Shown here in pieces: positions 5,806 to 53,243 of a stretch of 64,000 bases of DNA (position 1 is the stretch's first letter; every line of letters starts with the position of its first letter). The stretch comes from Thiobacillus sp. Lineage in GTDB: Bacteria; Pseudomonadota; Gammaproteobacteria; Burkholderiales; Thiobacillaceae. Location: the NCBI RefSeq assembly GCF_018780105.1, contig NZ_JADMKC010000005.1, forward strand, positions 142,482 to 206,481, read 5' to 3'. The notes beneath the pieces were generated by a model, which worked only from the letters and a program-made list of their open reading frames with translations, searched no databases and was not told the origin of the DNA. The position numbers and the translations under genes are program-made.

Positions 5806-6222
5806 TCAGTCCTGTTTCGGCGTCGGGTGTTCGGCTTCAAAATTCAGCGAGGCCGAGTTGATGCAATAGCGCATGCCGGTGGGTGCGGGGCCGTCCGGGA
5901 AAACATGGCCGAGATGCGATCCGCAGCGGCGGCACAAGGCCTCGGTGCGCGTCATGCCGTGGCTGGCGTCTGTTTTTTCCGCTACCGCGTCGGCGTTGAT
6001 CGCCTGGTAAAAGCTCGGCCAGCCGGTGCCGGAATCAAATTTGGTGCCGGAGGCAAAGAGCGGCTCGCCGCAGGCGGCGCAACGGTATTCTCCGGCCGCG
6101 TGGTTGTTCCAGTACTGGCCGGTAAAAGCGCGTTCGGTGCCATGCTCACGCAGAATGCGGTATTGCTCGGGGCTCAGTTCGGCGCGCCATTCGGCGTCGG
6201 ATTTAGTTTTATCGAAAGTCAT
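5806..6222 (-). CDS. msrB: Peptide-methionine (R)-S-oxide reductase MsrB
   Basis: MsrB reduces methionine-R-sulfoxide in oxidised proteins. The 138-residue product has both zinc-binding CxxC pairs (RCAACGEPL and [10 protein letters not shown]), the substrate region GTGWPSF, and the catalytic Cys in [11 protein letters not shown]. The start at 6222 is preceded by AGGAG on the minus strand; the ORF-track start at 6270 would add 16 unconserved residues. It appears cytoplasmic because no signal peptide is visible. It is transcribed away from the rubrerythrin cassette, placing two oxidative-damage functions back to back. Confidence 0.93.
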
Positions 6223-6312: not shown

Positions 6313-6342
6313 TTGACAGCGTCATTGCGTCGGGTCTATTCT
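6313..6342 (+). promoter_or_regulatory. Candidate sigma-70 promoter for the rubrerythrin cassette
   Basis: A perfect -35 TTGACA (6313-6318) is followed by an 18-bp spacer and TATTCT (6337-6342). The 15-bp palindrome at 6354-6368 lies immediately downstream, where an operator would block initiation or early elongation. A leader of about 130 nt would precede the rubrerythrin ATG. Assignment is from the sequence only. Confidence 0.55.
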
Positions 6343-6353
6343 TCGTTCAGGTA

Positions 6354-6368
6354 TTAGACTTAGTCTAA
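6354..6368. promoter_or_regulatory. Perfect 7-1-7 palindrome TTAGACTTAGTCTAA, probable operator
   Basis: TTAGACT-T-AGTCTAA is a perfect inverted repeat just downstream of the candidate -10. The 7-1-7 geometry is shared with Fur/PerR-type boxes, but the bases do not match the known Fur consensus. A near-identical copy sits upstream of ftsH at 22957. The cognate regulator is unknown. Confidence 0.6.
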
Positions 6369-6477: not shown

Positions 6478-6897
6478 ATGCAACTTAAGGGCTCAAAAAC
6501 TGAAGATCATCTGAAAGCCGCTTTCGCGGGCGAATCACAGGCCAATCGCCGTTACCTTTACTTCGCAGCAAAAGCTGACGTGGAAGGCTATAACGATGTC
6601 GCTTCGGTATTCCGTTCCACGGCTGAAGGTGAAACCGGCCACGCGCACGGCCACCTGGAATACCTGGAAAAATGCGGCGATCCCGCTACCGGCATGGCTT
6701 TTGGCCCCACCGCCGACAACCTGAAGACCGCGATCGCAGGCGAAACGCACGAGTACACCGACATGTATCCGGGCATGGCCAAGGATGCACGTGCCGAAGG
6801 TTTCGACGAAATCGCCGACTGGTTCGAGACGCTGGCCAAGGCCGAGCGTTCGCACGCCAACAAGTTCCAGAAAACGCTGGACACTCTGGGCGCGTAA
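6478..6897 (+). CDS. Rubrerythrin family protein without rubredoxin domain
   Basis: A 139-residue ferritin-like diiron protein. It has the rubrerythrin four-helix signature: [17 protein letters not shown], the ExxH pair in [10 protein letters not shown], then [17 protein letters not shown] and [11 protein letters not shown]. The C-terminal rubredoxin domain (two CxxC) found in ~190-residue rubrerythrins is missing, so electrons must come from another protein. Rubrerythrins reduce peroxide with diiron chemistry. The SD AAGGAG precedes the ATG. A strong terminator follows, but the next genes (Fe-S oxidoreductase and DUF3501) form a commonly conserved cassette with it. Confidence 0.9.
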
Positions 6898-6909
6898 TTC
6901 TGTCCACGC

Positions 6910-6940
6910 AAAAAGCGGGTCGGATTCGGCCCGCTTTTTT
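6910..6940 (+). terminator. Intrinsic terminator after rubrerythrin
   Basis: AAAAAGCGGG pairs with CCCGCTTTTT around a 10-nt loop and ends in six T. It would uncouple high rubrerythrin expression from the downstream Fe-S oxidoreductase unless read-through occurs; only 48 bp separate the terminator and the next ATG. Confidence 0.85.
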
Positions 6941-6988: not shown

Positions 6989-8320
6989 ATGAGCACTCGA
7001 GAAGGCAACCTCGAAGCCCCCACCCGTCACCCGCTCAACTGGAAAGCTCCGGATTTCTATGACGAAGGGAAGCTCAATCACGAGCTGGAGCGTGTTTTTG
7101 ACGCCTGTCATGGCTGCCGTCGTTGCGTGTCGCTGTGTACCGCGTTCCCGACACTGTTCGATCTGGTGGACAACTCCTCGACACAGGAAGTGGATGGCGT
7201 CGCCAAGGCCGACTATGCGAAGGTGGTGGACGAGTGCTACCTGTGCGATCTCTGTTACATGACCAAATGCCCCTACGTGCCGCCGCATCCGTGGAACATT
7301 GATTTTCCGCACCTGATGCTGCGTGCCAAGGCGCTCAAATTCAAGCAAGGCGGCACGACATTCCGCGACAAGCTGCTGTCCAGTACCGATGCGATGGGCA
7401 AGCTCGCTTCGATTCCCGTCGTCGTGCAGGCAGTCAATGCCAGCCTGAAGAGCAAACCGATCCGCAAGATGGTCGCTAGCGTGCTGCACATTCATCCCGA
7501 CCGCCAGCTGCCCGAATACGACAGCGAAAAATTCCGTTCCACTGCCAAACCGCGCAGTGATTTCGCGGTCAAGCCCGGGGCGAAAACGCCTGGCAAAGTG
7601 GCGATCTACGCGACCTGCTATGTGAATTACAACGAGCCCGACATCGGCCATGATTTGCTGAAACTGCTGGCGCACAACGAAATTCCCGCCGTGCTGGTGG
7701 ATAAGGAAGCCTGTTGTGGCATGCCCAAACTCGAGCTGGGCGATCTTGACGCAGTGCAGAAACTGAAAGAAATCAACATTCCGCATCTGGCGAAACTGGC
7801 GCATGAGGGCTATGCGATCCTGGCCGCTGTGCCGTCCTGCACCTTGATGTACAAGCAGGAGCTGCCGCTGATGTTCCCCGATGACGCCGATGTGCTGGCC
7901 GTCAGGGACGCGATGTGGGATCCCTTCGAATACCTGATGGCGCGCAATGTCGACGGACTGTTGAAGACCGATTTCAACTCGCCGCTCGGCAAGGTTGCCT
8001 ATCACGTGCCCTGCCACCAGCGGGTGCAGAACATCGGCAACAAGACGCGCGACGCCCTGCAACTGGCGGGCGCCAAGGTAACGATGGTCGAGCGCTGTTC
8101 GGGCCACGACGGCACCTGGGGCGTGAAATCGGAGTATTTCGACAAGTCGATGAAAATTGGCAAGCCGGTGTTCCGCCAGATGGCCGAGCCGCAACCTGAT
8201 TACGTCAGCTCGGACTGTGCGATTGCCGCGCGCCACATCCTGCAGGGAATGGGCGAGAGCGCCACCGCCGAAAAGCGGCACCCGATCACGCTGTTGCGCA
8301 TTGCATACGGCCTCGAATAA
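6989..8320 (+). CDS. Heterodisulfide reductase-related Fe-S oxidoreductase (GlpC/HdrD-like)
   Basis: A 443-residue protein with two 4Fe-4S motifs near the N-terminus (CHGCRRCVSLC at about 40-50 and CYLCDLCYMTKC at about 82-93) and two CCG-type cysteine-rich modules (EACCGMPK; PCHQRVQ...ERCSGHDG). This is the architecture of GlpC/HdrD/LutA-like electron-transfer subunits. It is found next to rubrerythrin and DUF3501 in several betaproteobacteria, so it may deliver electrons to the rubredoxin-less rubrerythrin. That role is inferred from neighbourhood. No membrane segment is obvious. A weak SD (CAGGAG) precedes the ATG. Confidence 0.83.
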   Translation: MSTREGNLEAPTRHPLNWKAPDFYDEGKLNHELERVFDACHGCRRCVSLCTAFPTLFDLVDNSSTQEVDGVAKADYAKVVDECYLCDLCYMTKCPYVPPHPWNIDFPHLMLRAKALKFKQGGTTFRDKLLSSTDAMGKLASIPVVVQAVNASLKSKPIRKMVASVLHIHPDRQLPEYDSEKFRSTAKPRSDFAVKPGAKTPGKVAIYATCYVNYNEPDIGHDLLKLLAHNEIPAVLVDKEACCGMPKLELGDLDAVQKLKEINIPHLAKLAHEGYAILAAVPSCTLMYKQELPLMFPDDADVLAVRDAMWDPFEYLMARNVDGLLKTDFNSPLGKVAYHVPCHQRVQNIGNKTRDALQLAGAKVTMVERCSGHDGTWGVKSEYFDKSMKIGKPVFRQMAEPQPDYVSSDCAIAARHILQGMGESATAEKRHPITLLRIAYGLE

Positions 8321-8342: not shown

Positions 8343-8927
8343 ATGCCCCAGATTACCCGTGACAGCCTGATGAGCCTGGAAAGCTATGCCAAGGTTCGTC
8401 CGGCCTATCGCAGCGAGATGATCGCGCACAAGAAAAACCGCTCTGTGGCGTTGGGCGGGCACGTGACGCTGATTTTCGAAGACGAGAAAACCATGCGTTA
8501 CCAGATTCAGGAAATGCTGCGCGCCGAGCGAACCTTCGAAGACGCGGGTATCCAGGACGAACTGGATGCCTACAACCCGCTGATTCCGGATGGCAGCAAC
8601 TGGAAGGCGACCATGATGATCGAGTACCCCGATCCGGACGAGCGCCAGCTCGCCCTCGGGAAACTGAAGGGGATCGAGGACAGGGTGTGGGTTCAGGTGG
8701 CGGATCAGCCGCGGGTCTACGCCATCGCGGACGAAGACATGGAACGCGAGAACGCGGAGAAAACGTCGGCGGTGCACTTCTTGCGTTTTGAGCTCGATGC
8801 CACCTCGGCCGCGGCAGCCAAGTCGGGCGCGGCCATCCGCATGGGGATAGACCTCGTTGCCTATCCGGTGGAAGCAATCACCCTGGCAGAGAACGCGCGT
8901 GCTGCGCTGGTGGCCGATCTGGCCTAA
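8343..8927 (+). CDS. DUF3501 family protein
   Basis: A 194-residue protein starting at ATG 8343 behind AGGAGA; the ORF-track start at 8157 lies inside the Fe-S gene. It matches DUF3501 (ITRDSLMSLESYAKVRPAYRSEMIAHKKNR, then MRYQIQEMLRAER and YNPLIPDGSNWKATMMIEYPD). DUF3501 proteins almost always accompany the rubrerythrin/Fe-S oxidoreductase pair, and no biochemical function is known. It is cytoplasmic by appearance, with no Cys cluster or signal. It lies 22 bp after the Fe-S gene and is probably cotranscribed. Confidence 0.82.
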   Translation: MPQITRDSLMSLESYAKVRPAYRSEMIAHKKNRSVALGGHVTLIFEDEKTMRYQIQEMLRAERTFEDAGIQDELDAYNPLIPDGSNWKATMMIEYPDPDERQLALGKLKGIEDRVWVQVADQPRVYAIADEDMERENAEKTSAVHFLRFELDATSAAAAKSGAAIRMGIDLVAYPVEAITLAENARAALVADLA

Positions 8928-13558: not shown

Positions 13559-14433
13559 TCCGCTTCCTGTTTGTTTGCCTGTGCGCGTTGCTGGCATGGC
13601 CAGCGCAGGCCGCGATGATCGAAGTGCGCGACGATGCCGGACAGATGCTCGCATTTGCCCGCCCGCCGCAGCGCATTATTTCCCTGACGCCCCACCTGAC
13701 CGAACTGCTGTTTGCCGTTGGCGCGGGCCCGCAGATCGTGGGCGTCGATAGTGCCAGCGATTATCCGCCCGCTGCTCAGGCGTTGCCACGCATCGGTGAT
13801 TTCAGCCGGGTGAATTTCGAACGCGTCCTGGCGCTGAAACCCGACCTGGTGCTTGTATGGCTGGACGGCAATCGCGCCGTCGATATTCATGGCCTGAAGA
13901 AAATGGGGGTGCCGGTTTTGCAAACCCGTGCCACCCGGCTTGACGACGTTGCACGCCTGCTGCGTATGCTTGGCGTGGCGACCGGCCATGAGGAACAGGG
14001 CGAGGCTGCGGCAAAGGCATACCGGACACGGCTGGCTGCGTTGCAAATGAGAAATCCCGGGCAGCCTCCGCTCAAGGTGTTTTATCAGGTGTGGGATCGG
14101 CCGCTGATGACGGTGGGCGGGGCGCACTGGATCAGCGATGCGCTGCAGCTGTGTGGCGCACTCAACGTGTTTGCCGATCTGCCCGGGTTGTCGCCGGTGG
14201 TGTCACGCGAGGCTGTGTTGCAGCGTGCGCCGGAGGTGGTCGTGAGTGGCAGCGATGCGCCGGACATGCGCGCGCAGTGGCAAGGGTTTCCGGGGCTGCC
14301 TGCAGTGAAAAGGCAGGCCTTCGTGCGCATTGATGCGGATCGTCTGCACCGTCCGACGCCACGTTTGGTTGAGGGGGTGGCCGCGCTGTGCAATGTACTC
14401 CAGCCCGCGATACGGCACTCCGGTCAGCGTTGA
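13555..14433 (+). CDS. Periplasmic cobalamin/siderophore ABC substrate-binding protein (BtuF-like)
   Basis: A 292-residue exported binding protein with GTG start overlapping the phosphatase by 4 bp and signal sequence [17 protein letters not shown]. Class III binding-protein features are [30 protein letters not shown], a [11 protein letters not shown] stretch and a C-terminal [11 protein letters not shown]. The phosphatase neighbour favours vitamin B12 or cobamide as ligand. No permease or ATPase genes are adjacent, so partners must be elsewhere. Its 3' end overlaps the convergent fur gene by 10 bp. Confidence 0.8.
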
Positions 14434-14870
14434 CGCGCTGGGCTCGGCTTGCGGTTGGGGCAGTTTTCCTTGATGCAATCGGCGTAGATCTGCAGCGAAT
14501 GATCGTGGATGGCGAAGCCGCGTTCCTTGGCGATCCGGTGCTGGCGCTTCTCGATTTCGGCGTCGATGAATTCCTCGACCTTGCCGCATTGCATGCAAAC
14601 CAGATGGTCGTGATGGTCGCCGTGATTGAGTTCAAAAACCGCCTTGTCGCTATCGAAATGATGGCGCATCAACAAACCTGCCTGTTCGAACTGCGTCAGC
14701 ACGCGATACACCGTTGCCAGGCCAATATCCTGGCCATCGTCAGTCAGCAGTCGATACACCTCTTCTGCCGTCATGTGACGCTTGTCGCTTTGCTCAAATA
14801 AATCGAGGATTTTCAGCCGTGGCAGCGTGGCTTTGAGACCGATGTTTTTGAGATCGGAGGGGTTGCTCAA
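14424..14870 (-). CDS. fur: Ferric uptake regulator Fur
   Basis: A 148-residue iron-responsive repressor. Visible are the winged-helix DNA-binding domain ([42 protein letters not shown]), the HHDH-containing metal motif ([13 protein letters not shown]) and the CxxC zinc site in [12 protein letters not shown], with a further C-terminal Cys pair (CIKENC). Divergent transcription from bamE is the usual fur-bamE arrangement of betaproteobacteria. The ATG is at 14870, 79 bp from the bamE start. Confidence 0.95.
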
Positions 14871-22956: not shown

Positions 22957-22971
22957 TTAGAATGAGTCTAA
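22957..22971. promoter_or_regulatory. Second copy of the 7-1-7 palindrome, upstream of ftsH
   Basis: TTAGAAT-G-AGTCTAA matches the operator-like TTAGACT-T-AGTCTAA at 6354 in 13 of 15 positions and keeps the outer TTAGA/TCTAA dyad. It begins 2 bp after the rlmE stop and 48 bp before the ftsH start. Confidence 0.5.
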
Positions 22972-23018: not shown

Positions 23019-24914
23019 TTGAACAATTTGCCTAAAAACATCGCCATCTGGCTGATCGTTGCCGTTGTCCTGATGACGGTGTTCAATCAGTTTGGTGCTC
23101 AGCGTACTGCGCAGACGCAGATGCCGTATTCGCAGTTCATCGAGGCGGTGCGCTCGCAGGAAATTACCAAGGTGGTGATCGAAGGCAACGTGCTGAAGGG
23201 TGAGCGGGCTGACGGCCAGCGTTTCACCAGTTATGCGCCGAGCGATCCCTGGATGGTGTCTGACCTGCTTAAAAACGGCGTGTCGGTTGAAGCCAAGCCG
23301 GAAGAGCAGCCCTCTTTCCTGATGAGCCTGTTTATTTCATGGTTCCCCATGCTGTTGCTGATCGGGGTATGGATCTTTTTTATGCGGCAGATGCAGGGCG
23401 GCGGCAAAGGCGGTGCGTTTTCGTTCGGCAAGAGCCGTGCCCGTCTGCTCGACGAAAACACCAATCCGGTCACGTTCGCGGATGTGGCGGGGTGCGACGA
23501 AGCCAAGCAGGATGTGGCTGAACTGGTCGATTTTCTGAAAGACCCCACAAAATTCCAGAAGCTTGGTGGCCGGATTCCGCGCGGCGTACTGCTGGTCGGT
23601 TCGCCCGGTACCGGTAAAACCCTGCTTGCCCGTTCGATTGCGGGTGAGGCCAAGGTGCCGTTTTACAGCATTTCAGGTTCCGATTTCGTCGAGATGTTTG
23701 TCGGCGTGGGCGCATCGCGTGTGCGCGATATGTTTGAGCAGGCTAAAAAGAGTGCGCCCTGTATTATTTTCATCGACGAGATTGATGCGGTGGGTCGCCA
23801 GCGCGGTGCGGGCTTGGGCGGTGGCAATGACGAACGCGAGCAGACATTGAATCAGCTGCTGGTCGAAATGGACGGCTTCGAGGGGGCGAGCGGCGTCATT
23901 GTGATTGCGGCAACCAACCGCCCTGACGTGCTTGACCCGGCCTTGTTGCGTCCTGGCCGGTTTGACCGCCAAGTGGTGGTTGCGCTACCGGATATTCGTG
24001 GCCGCGAGCAGATTCTGCTGGTGCACATGCGCAAGGTGCCGGTCGCGCCTGATGTGCGCGCAGACATTCTGGCGCGCGGTACGCCGGGCATGTCGGGTGC
24101 GGACCTCGCCAATCTGGTCAATGAAGCTGCCCTCTTTGCCGCGCGTGGCAACAAGCGGCTGGTCGATATGGAAGACTTCGAACAGGCCAAGGACAAAATC
24201 TTCATGGGCGCCGAGCGCAAGTCCATGGTGATTACGCTTGAAGACAAGAAAAAAACCGCCTATCACGAGTCGGGTCATGCTGTGATCGGCATGACCCTGC
24301 CGGGCTGCGATCCGGTGCACAAGGTCACGGTGATTCCGCGCGGTCGTGCGTTGGGCGTGACAATGTCGCTGCCGGAAACAGATCGCTTCAGCCTGTATCA
24401 GGATCAGATGCTGGCGCAGATCAGCATGTTGTTCGGCGGACGCGTGGCGGAAGAAATTTTTGTCGGCAGCATTTCCACCGGCGCATCCAACGACTTCGAG
24501 CGCGCAACCAATATTGCGCGTGACATGGTGACGCGTTATGGCATGTCGGCTGCCTTGGGTCCGATGGTGTATGGCGAAAATGAAGGCGAAGTGTTTCTGG
24601 GGCGTTCGGTGACGACGCACAAGAACATGAGCGAAACCACGATGCAGAAGGTGGATGCTGAAATTCGCCGCATTCTCGACGAGCAGTATGCGTTGGCGAC
24701 CAAAATCCTGACCGAGAGCCGCGACAAGGTTGAGGCGATGACTGCCGCTCTGCTGGAATTTGAAACCATCGATGCCGACCAGATCGGCGATATCATGGCC
24801 GGCCGCACGGTGCGTCCGCCCAAGCCCTCCTCTGCAACGCCCCAGCCGCCGGCAAGCGGCGGCGATAAACCCAGCGCCCCTGCGCCAACCGTTCAGCCGG
24901 CACAGGAAACCTGA
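23019..24914 (+). CDS. ftsH: ATP-dependent zinc metalloprotease FtsH
   Basis: FtsH is the membrane-anchored AAA+ protease that degrades misfolded membrane proteins and regulators. I use TTG 23019 ([22 protein letters not shown]) because AAGGAG lies 5 bp upstream; the GTG at 23013 overlaps that SD. The 631-residue protein has two N-terminal membrane segments (about 7-25 and 100-120), Walker A GSPGTGKT (about 193), Walker [13 protein letters not shown], the SRH region and the zinc site HESGH (about 415). The C-terminal tail is Pro/Ala-rich. A terminator follows. Confidence 0.95.
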
Positions 24915-52781: not shown

Positions 52782-53243
52782 ATGAGGTTGACCACGAAAG
52801 GTCGTTTTGCTGTGACCGCGATGCTGGATCTGGCGCTGCGCGGCGGTAAAAATCCAGTCACGCTGGCAGGCATCAGCGAGCGTCAGGACATATCCCTGTC
52901 CTATCTGGAGCAACTCTTCAGCCGCTTGCGCCGCCATGAATTGGTGGAGAGCGTACGCGGCCCGGGCGGTGGCTATTATCTTGCCCGAACCCTGGGCAAC
53001 ATCAGCGTCGCCGACATCATCCGCGCGGTAGACGAACCTATCGACGCCACCCATTGCGGCGGCAAGGAAAACTGCCACGACGACCACCGCTGCCTGACGC
53101 ATGACTTGTGGATGGGCCTCAACGCCCATATCTACGATTATCTGGACAATGTCACCCTTGCCACGCTGGTTGCTAAGCAGGAAGAGTGTAAGGAAAAAAT
53201 AATGCAGGACCGTCGTGCGCCCAAGGCAACGCTTGCAGCTTGA
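52782..53243 (+). CDS. iscR: Fe-S cluster assembly transcriptional regulator IscR
   Basis: The 153-residue Rrf2-family repressor. It has the winged-helix opening [22 protein letters not shown], the DNA-contact region [32 protein letters not shown], and the cluster Cys in [18 protein letters not shown] (C-x5-C-x5-C). SD AGGAGA lies upstream. It is the first isc gene and probably represses itself, the operon and cysE via the boxes listed. Confidence 0.96.

Follow-up and report, generated by a model that had tools for sequence, protein, structure and literature searches.

What reads the palindrome that stands at the rubrerythrin promoter of this Thiobacillus sp.? Its exact sequence is TTAGACTTAGTCTAA, at positions 6354-6368 of the window (the whole 64-kb stretch of DNA that was analyzed). 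From sequence comparison we consider it highly probable that a second Fur-family protein, a betaproteobacterial regulator of the Irr/PerR type, uses the palindrome as its operator; this confidence extends to the operator and its regulator and not to the signal.

The palindrome at the rubrerythrin promoter

The initial annotation had described a perfect 15-bp palindrome at the promoter of a rubrerythrin gene, just past a near-consensus promoter. Its position and the identity of the gene (rbr) were borne out, as was the promoter, in which TTGACA is followed after 18 nt by TATTCT and, with its first base 11 nt past the −10 element, by the box. This spacing puts the box at about +6 to +20 relative to the inferred start; the distance from the box to the rubrerythrin start codon is 109 nt. 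The locus has the following features, in window coordinates.

5806-6222, minus strand: msrB, peptide-methionine R-sulfoxide reductase, divergent from rbr
6313-6318, plus strand: −35 element TTGACA of the rbr promoter (consensus match, kept in congeners)
6337-6342, plus strand: −10 element TATTCT, inferred, with an 18-nt spacer to the −35 element
6354-6368, no strand: putative operator, the Irr/ICE-like box TTAGACTTAGTCTAA (from sequence and comparison with relatives)
6478-6897, plus strand: rbr, short rubrerythrin of 139 aa (PF02915)
6909-6939, plus strand: terminator-like hairpin and T-run 3' of rbr (−20.5 kcal/mol)
6989-8320, plus strand: GlpC-like Fe-S/CCG-domain protein, the gene after rbr in the cluster
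8343-8927, plus strand: DUF3501 protein, the third gene of the cluster

Since msrB is divergent from rbr and next to it, an adjacency found in 27 of 30 congeneric loci, the box sits in a redox-repair intergenic region. At the other end of the gene, the strong hairpin separates rbr from the GlpC-like gene and may keep rbr in surplus relative to the genes that follow.

The palindrome alone proves nothing because perfect 7-1-7 palindromes are common (5 in the 64-kb window versus 6.75 expected under a first-order Markov model), and its meaning comes from comparison. Among named assemblies, those nearest to this genome belong to Thiobacillus and other Thiobacillaceae/Hydrogenophilales. All 30 congeneric rbr promoters carry the box, 29 of them as a perfect match and one with 1 mismatch. 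Across these boxes (n = 30), 13 of the 15 columns were invariant, positions 1-6 and 9-15 carrying 2.0 bits; position 7 carried 1.79 bits, the center alone varied freely, and most of the flanking columns lay below the box columns in bits. The pattern TTAGA-N5-TCTAA also persists before rbr across many genera besides Thiobacillus. The 38 boxes found before rbr in genomes of other genera all had TTAGA and TCTA unchanged and kept the last A in 36/38, while the middle was degenerate, and in most of these promoters a TTGACA-type promoter precedes the box at a similar distance. Judged by these alignments, the conservation of the box as an element is far beyond chance, and the site is under strong constraint.

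Within the Thiobacillus genome itself, a search allowing at most 1 mismatch gave 3 matches, which precede rbr, ftsH, and folE2, versus 0 for the reversed control pattern; the near-matches sit before genes and are not scattered through coding DNA. When up to 3 mismatches were allowed, the motif gave 13 matches and the reversed control 68, the motif being depleted relative to the control.

A Fur-family paralog that accompanies the box

The genome has three Fur-family genes. One, in the window, encodes an ordinary Fur, another a Zur-like protein, and the third, outside the window, a paralog of 136 aa. The features are as follows.

Window 14424-14870, minus strand: ordinary Fur (context, not the candidate regulator)
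G000:C21:11804-12211, minus strand: candidate regulator of 136 aa, outside the window
C21:12234-12248, at the paralog promoter: the paralog's own box, the variant TTAGACAAAGTCCAG

The co-occurring Fur paralog that the initial annotation had proposed to look for is thus present, and it tracks the box. We searched the rbr promoters of 60 genomes outside the genus for TTAGANTNANTCTAA with at most 2 mismatches and found a box in 38/40 genomes with the paralog versus 2/20 without it (Fisher 4e-11). Counting each family once outside the own family, the figures were 17/19 with the paralog and 1/11 without (p 2e-5), these co-occurrence statistics being not fully corrected for phylogeny. The two genomes outside the genus that have a box and no detected paralog are both drafts (G133, 94% complete, and G088, 71%), and in G037 (86% complete) a single genus-type site occurs with no paralog detected. 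Altogether, the paralog was found in 100/149 of the relatives searched, or two thirds.

The paralog's own box, 3 mismatches from the motif, stood at its promoter in every one of the 30 congeners, two of which had another last base, and boxes like it precede the paralog gene in most other genera too. Divergent relatives of the paralog, with 41-51% identity, occur in G090, G107, G135, and G139 (L152, L159, L168, L181, L187, L199, L201); where examined, the rbr boxes of these genomes had 2 mismatches, possibly reflecting regulator-operator co-evolution.

The protein has the Fur fold (PF01475, 65.5 bits). Its best hits of all in NCBIfam were IrrA (116.8 bits, cut-off 150) and Irr (112.0 bits, cut-off 170), both under the equivalog cut-offs (NF045678/NF045677), followed by PerRA, and among solved PDB structures the best match was Leptospira interrogans PerR (5nl9, 3e-18), then Bacillus subtilis PerR (1e-8). 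It contains an HHH motif and no cysteine, so that it lacks both the structural Cys4 zinc site and any haem motif of the Cys type. In the alignment it keeps all five metal ligands of PerR, which we take to be H37, D85, H91, H93, and D104 in B. subtilis PerR numbering, and its recognition helix has the Asn of PerR/Irr, not the Arg of Fur. The criteria for the PerR/Irr ligands and the recognition-helix Asn are those of PMC8638967. In a tree with weak support at several deep forks and with some rows that are fragmentary, six alphaproteobacterial Irr sequences formed their own clade (100/100), which the betaproteobacterial proteins adjoin (shared fork 82/97); the Leptospira protein lay further out than alphaproteobacterial Irr, and Fur formed a separate branch. 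Because of its sub-cut-off scores, its place beside the Irr clade, its lack of cysteine, and its PerR ligands, we file the paralog as neither Irr nor PerR; most likely, these features suggest, it works like one of the two.

The box, too, has a known counterpart. The consensus of the alphaproteobacterial Irr box (ICE), which we take to be TTAGAAT-N-ATTCTAA, shares with the Thiobacillus box the core TTAGA...TCTAA and differs from it at 2/14 positions, one base per half, the Thiobacillus half-site having C/G (TTAGACT); the exact ICE stands at rbr in G064 and G094. Alphaproteobacterial Irr resembles the paralog in belonging to the Fur family, in lacking the CxxC zinc site, and in having HxH and a similar C-terminal tail (…ID-x-x-VR-x-R…), and its rubrerythrin-related target mbfA is likewise boxed at the start site. 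In contrast, the paralog is betaproteobacterial, is only about 32-37% identical to plasmid-borne alphaproteobacterial Irr, has no Cys-type haem regulatory motif, and has targets that lean to peroxide defence. Irr of Brucella is reportedly autoregulatory. At S. meliloti mbfA the half-site is TTCTAA (PMC7540006), and Irr of Rhodobacter and Bradyrhizobium binds at mbfA, a rubrerythrin-like gene, whose transcript start in Rhodobacter maps inside the Irr box, which the authors found to fit repression (PMC3413700). According to a 2020 review, Irr is, few exceptions aside, confined to Alphaproteobacteria (PMC7762939).

Two PerR proteins were also compared. B. subtilis PerR is like the Thiobacillus system in its 7-1-7 operator, its peroxide-defence targets, and its five metal ligands, but it has the structural zinc Cys4 that the paralog lacks, and the PerR box, in the consensus that we assume, differs from the Thiobacillus box at 4/14 positions. 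Leptospira PerR (5nl9; NCBIfam PerRA) shares with the paralog the lack of a CxxC zinc motif and the PerR-type metal ligands, and perRA promoter sequences have been described as Irr-box-like (PMC8638967); it belongs, however, to a different phylum and branches more distantly than alphaproteobacterial Irr does, at deep forks that are weak. Of the initial suggestion that the palindrome could be the operator of an undescribed redox or iron regulator, the operator and its regulator gained support from the conserved site and the co-occurring Fur paralog, whereas the novelty has to be reduced, the box being one base per half from ICE and a protein of Irr/PerR type not wholly new.

Exchange with an OxyR-type site and other boxed genes

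The consensus half-site of OxyR is ATAG-N7-CTAT. Outside the genus, an exact match to it was present in 12/20 unboxed rbr promoters versus 0/40 boxed ones (p 9e-8), and the two genomes that have the paralog and no box at rbr, G103 and G124, both have the OxyR-type site. In the rbr upstream region of our Thiobacillus there was no match below 2 mismatches, and of the two matches listed at 2 mismatches or fewer, one was the box itself. The OxyR operator at rbr is like the Thiobacillus box in serving the same gene and the same presumed signal (peroxide), but it is an activator site, whereas the box is presumed to bind a repressor, and it replaces the box mostly in relatives without the paralog. 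Very probably, as this pattern suggests, the paralog stands in at rbr for the usual regulator, OxyR. A search for the OxyR family gave matches in 149/149 genomes, none above the cut-off, and did not discriminate among them. Since OxyR-like LysR matches occur in every genome, the exchange seen is one at the level of the operator, and since such proteins are still present, the paralog need not be a peroxide sensor.

The list of further boxed genes derives from pattern searches. Genus-wide, ftsH and folE2 are boxed besides rbr, the former within the window.

22957-22971, no strand: second box TTAGAATGAGTCTAA, between rlmE and ftsH
23019-24914, plus strand: ftsH, 3' of the second box

In other genera, boxes precede mntH (G066, G073), transaldolase (G117, G133), ahpC (G131), sodB, trxB, and a ferritin-like gene (G103), families that were checked on one example each. 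Targets resting on one or two genomes each are suggestive only, and in some distant genomes the totals do not exceed the control (in G117, 6 matches for the pattern versus 17 for the reversed control). No haem-biosynthesis gene was among the boxed genes in these searches.

Three candidates were dropped. The match before leuA (TTAGACCATGTCTAA) runs across the start codon of a leader peptide that is conserved and rich in Leu, which may explain it; the gene of a LysM protein (L012, L224) and pheA (G122) were unsupported as targets. The leader, MSKQSHRSVLFSCLTNVLFGGLLLRPARAH, with its relatives before leuA (G000:C24:271188-271202, L005; L219, L220, L221), looks like a leucine attenuation leader whose start-codon region resembles the box. 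At G000:C13:19492-19506 (L004), TTTGACTCAGTCTCA lies a few bases 5' of the gene of a small secreted-looking protein (MKSMKTQRALLVALLVGSGVLAASAYA...).

Proposed repression and its alternatives

Our best reading is that the box would be the operator of a repressor of a small peroxide/iron regulon. Its position, about +6 to +20, predicts repression: a dimer of the paralog would sit on both half-sites around the transcription start and block RNA polymerase, and the paralog would repress its own gene by equal means. With less certainty, the repressor may hold Fe(II) (or Mn) at the PerR-type H/D site; H2O2 would then oxidize the metal site, the repressor would let go, and rubrerythrin would be induced along with other genes that differ between genera. 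Two things make us favor this PerR-like release by peroxide: the target list and the way in which the box and the OxyR-type site replace each other.

The same operator and protein may instead, as a tentative second possibility, form a true Irr system, in which the apo-protein would repress iron-consuming proteins (rubrerythrin, ferritin) when iron or haem is scarce, haem would release it, and peroxide would be secondary. The nearest families, IrrA/Irr, and the neighboring Irr clade in the tree point this way, as do the Irr box on the rubrerythrin relative mbfA, the ferritin-like target in G103, and the HHH of the paralog, within which falls the HxH that has been described as a haem site in Irr (PMC7762939). 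Yet a protein without cysteine has no Cys-based haem regulatory motif (some Irr proteins also lack it), both NCBIfam cut-offs were missed, no haem-biosynthesis gene surfaced, and targets such as mntH, ahpC, sodB, trxB, and transaldolase, together with the OxyR exchange at rbr, fit peroxide better.

It is very unlikely that the ordinary Fur reads the site as an unusual Fur box. The 7-1-7 geometry and the presence of a Fur gene in the same window would suit it, but, in keeping with the initial annotation, the bases are unlike the Fur consensus (6/14 positions differ from the 7-1-7 form that we assume), and G109 and G137 have an ordinary Fur-like gene with neither paralog nor box. A regulator of the Rrf2 family (IscR, NsrR, or RirA-like) is a very improbable reader: such proteins control redox and iron genes, and the genome has five Rrf2 genes, but we saw no link between them and the box, a variant of which stands instead at the Fur paralog. 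The IscR-like member at window 52788-53174 scored 206.8 bits, just short of the 207.55 cut-off. Scarcely probable, finally, is an element of promoter architecture or of the mRNA 5' end, where the position of about +6 to +20 would allow a small hairpin, since related sequences also precede the paralog gene, ftsH, and folE2 and whether rbr is boxed depends on a regulator gene far away in the genome.

Neither an ICE-like box nor a protein of the Irr/PerR kind is new in itself. In the open-licence literature on Irr/PerR in Betaproteobacteria, Nitrosomonas, Thiobacillus, and Gallionella, we found no description of the paralog lineage, the operator variant, the presumed regulon, or the either-or with the OxyR-type site, and the literal TTAGACTTAGTCTAA led to unrelated papers only. 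It is a nearly even question whether there is in Betaproteobacteria a widespread and as yet undescribed sensor of peroxide, from the Irr/PerR superclade and with no structural zinc or cysteine, that has been swapped with OxyR at the rubrerythrin operon; an activated gene would thereby have become a repressed one that answers the same signal. The paralog belongs to a lineage neighboring Irr, with a sharply defined operator and an apparent small peroxide/iron regulon. The choice between an OxyR site and the box at a single operon amounts to a natural experiment on the replacement of one regulator by another, and it yields a prediction for each species of the sensor that induces rubrerythrin; the paralog lineage also bears on the relation of haem-sensing Irr to peroxide-sensing PerR.
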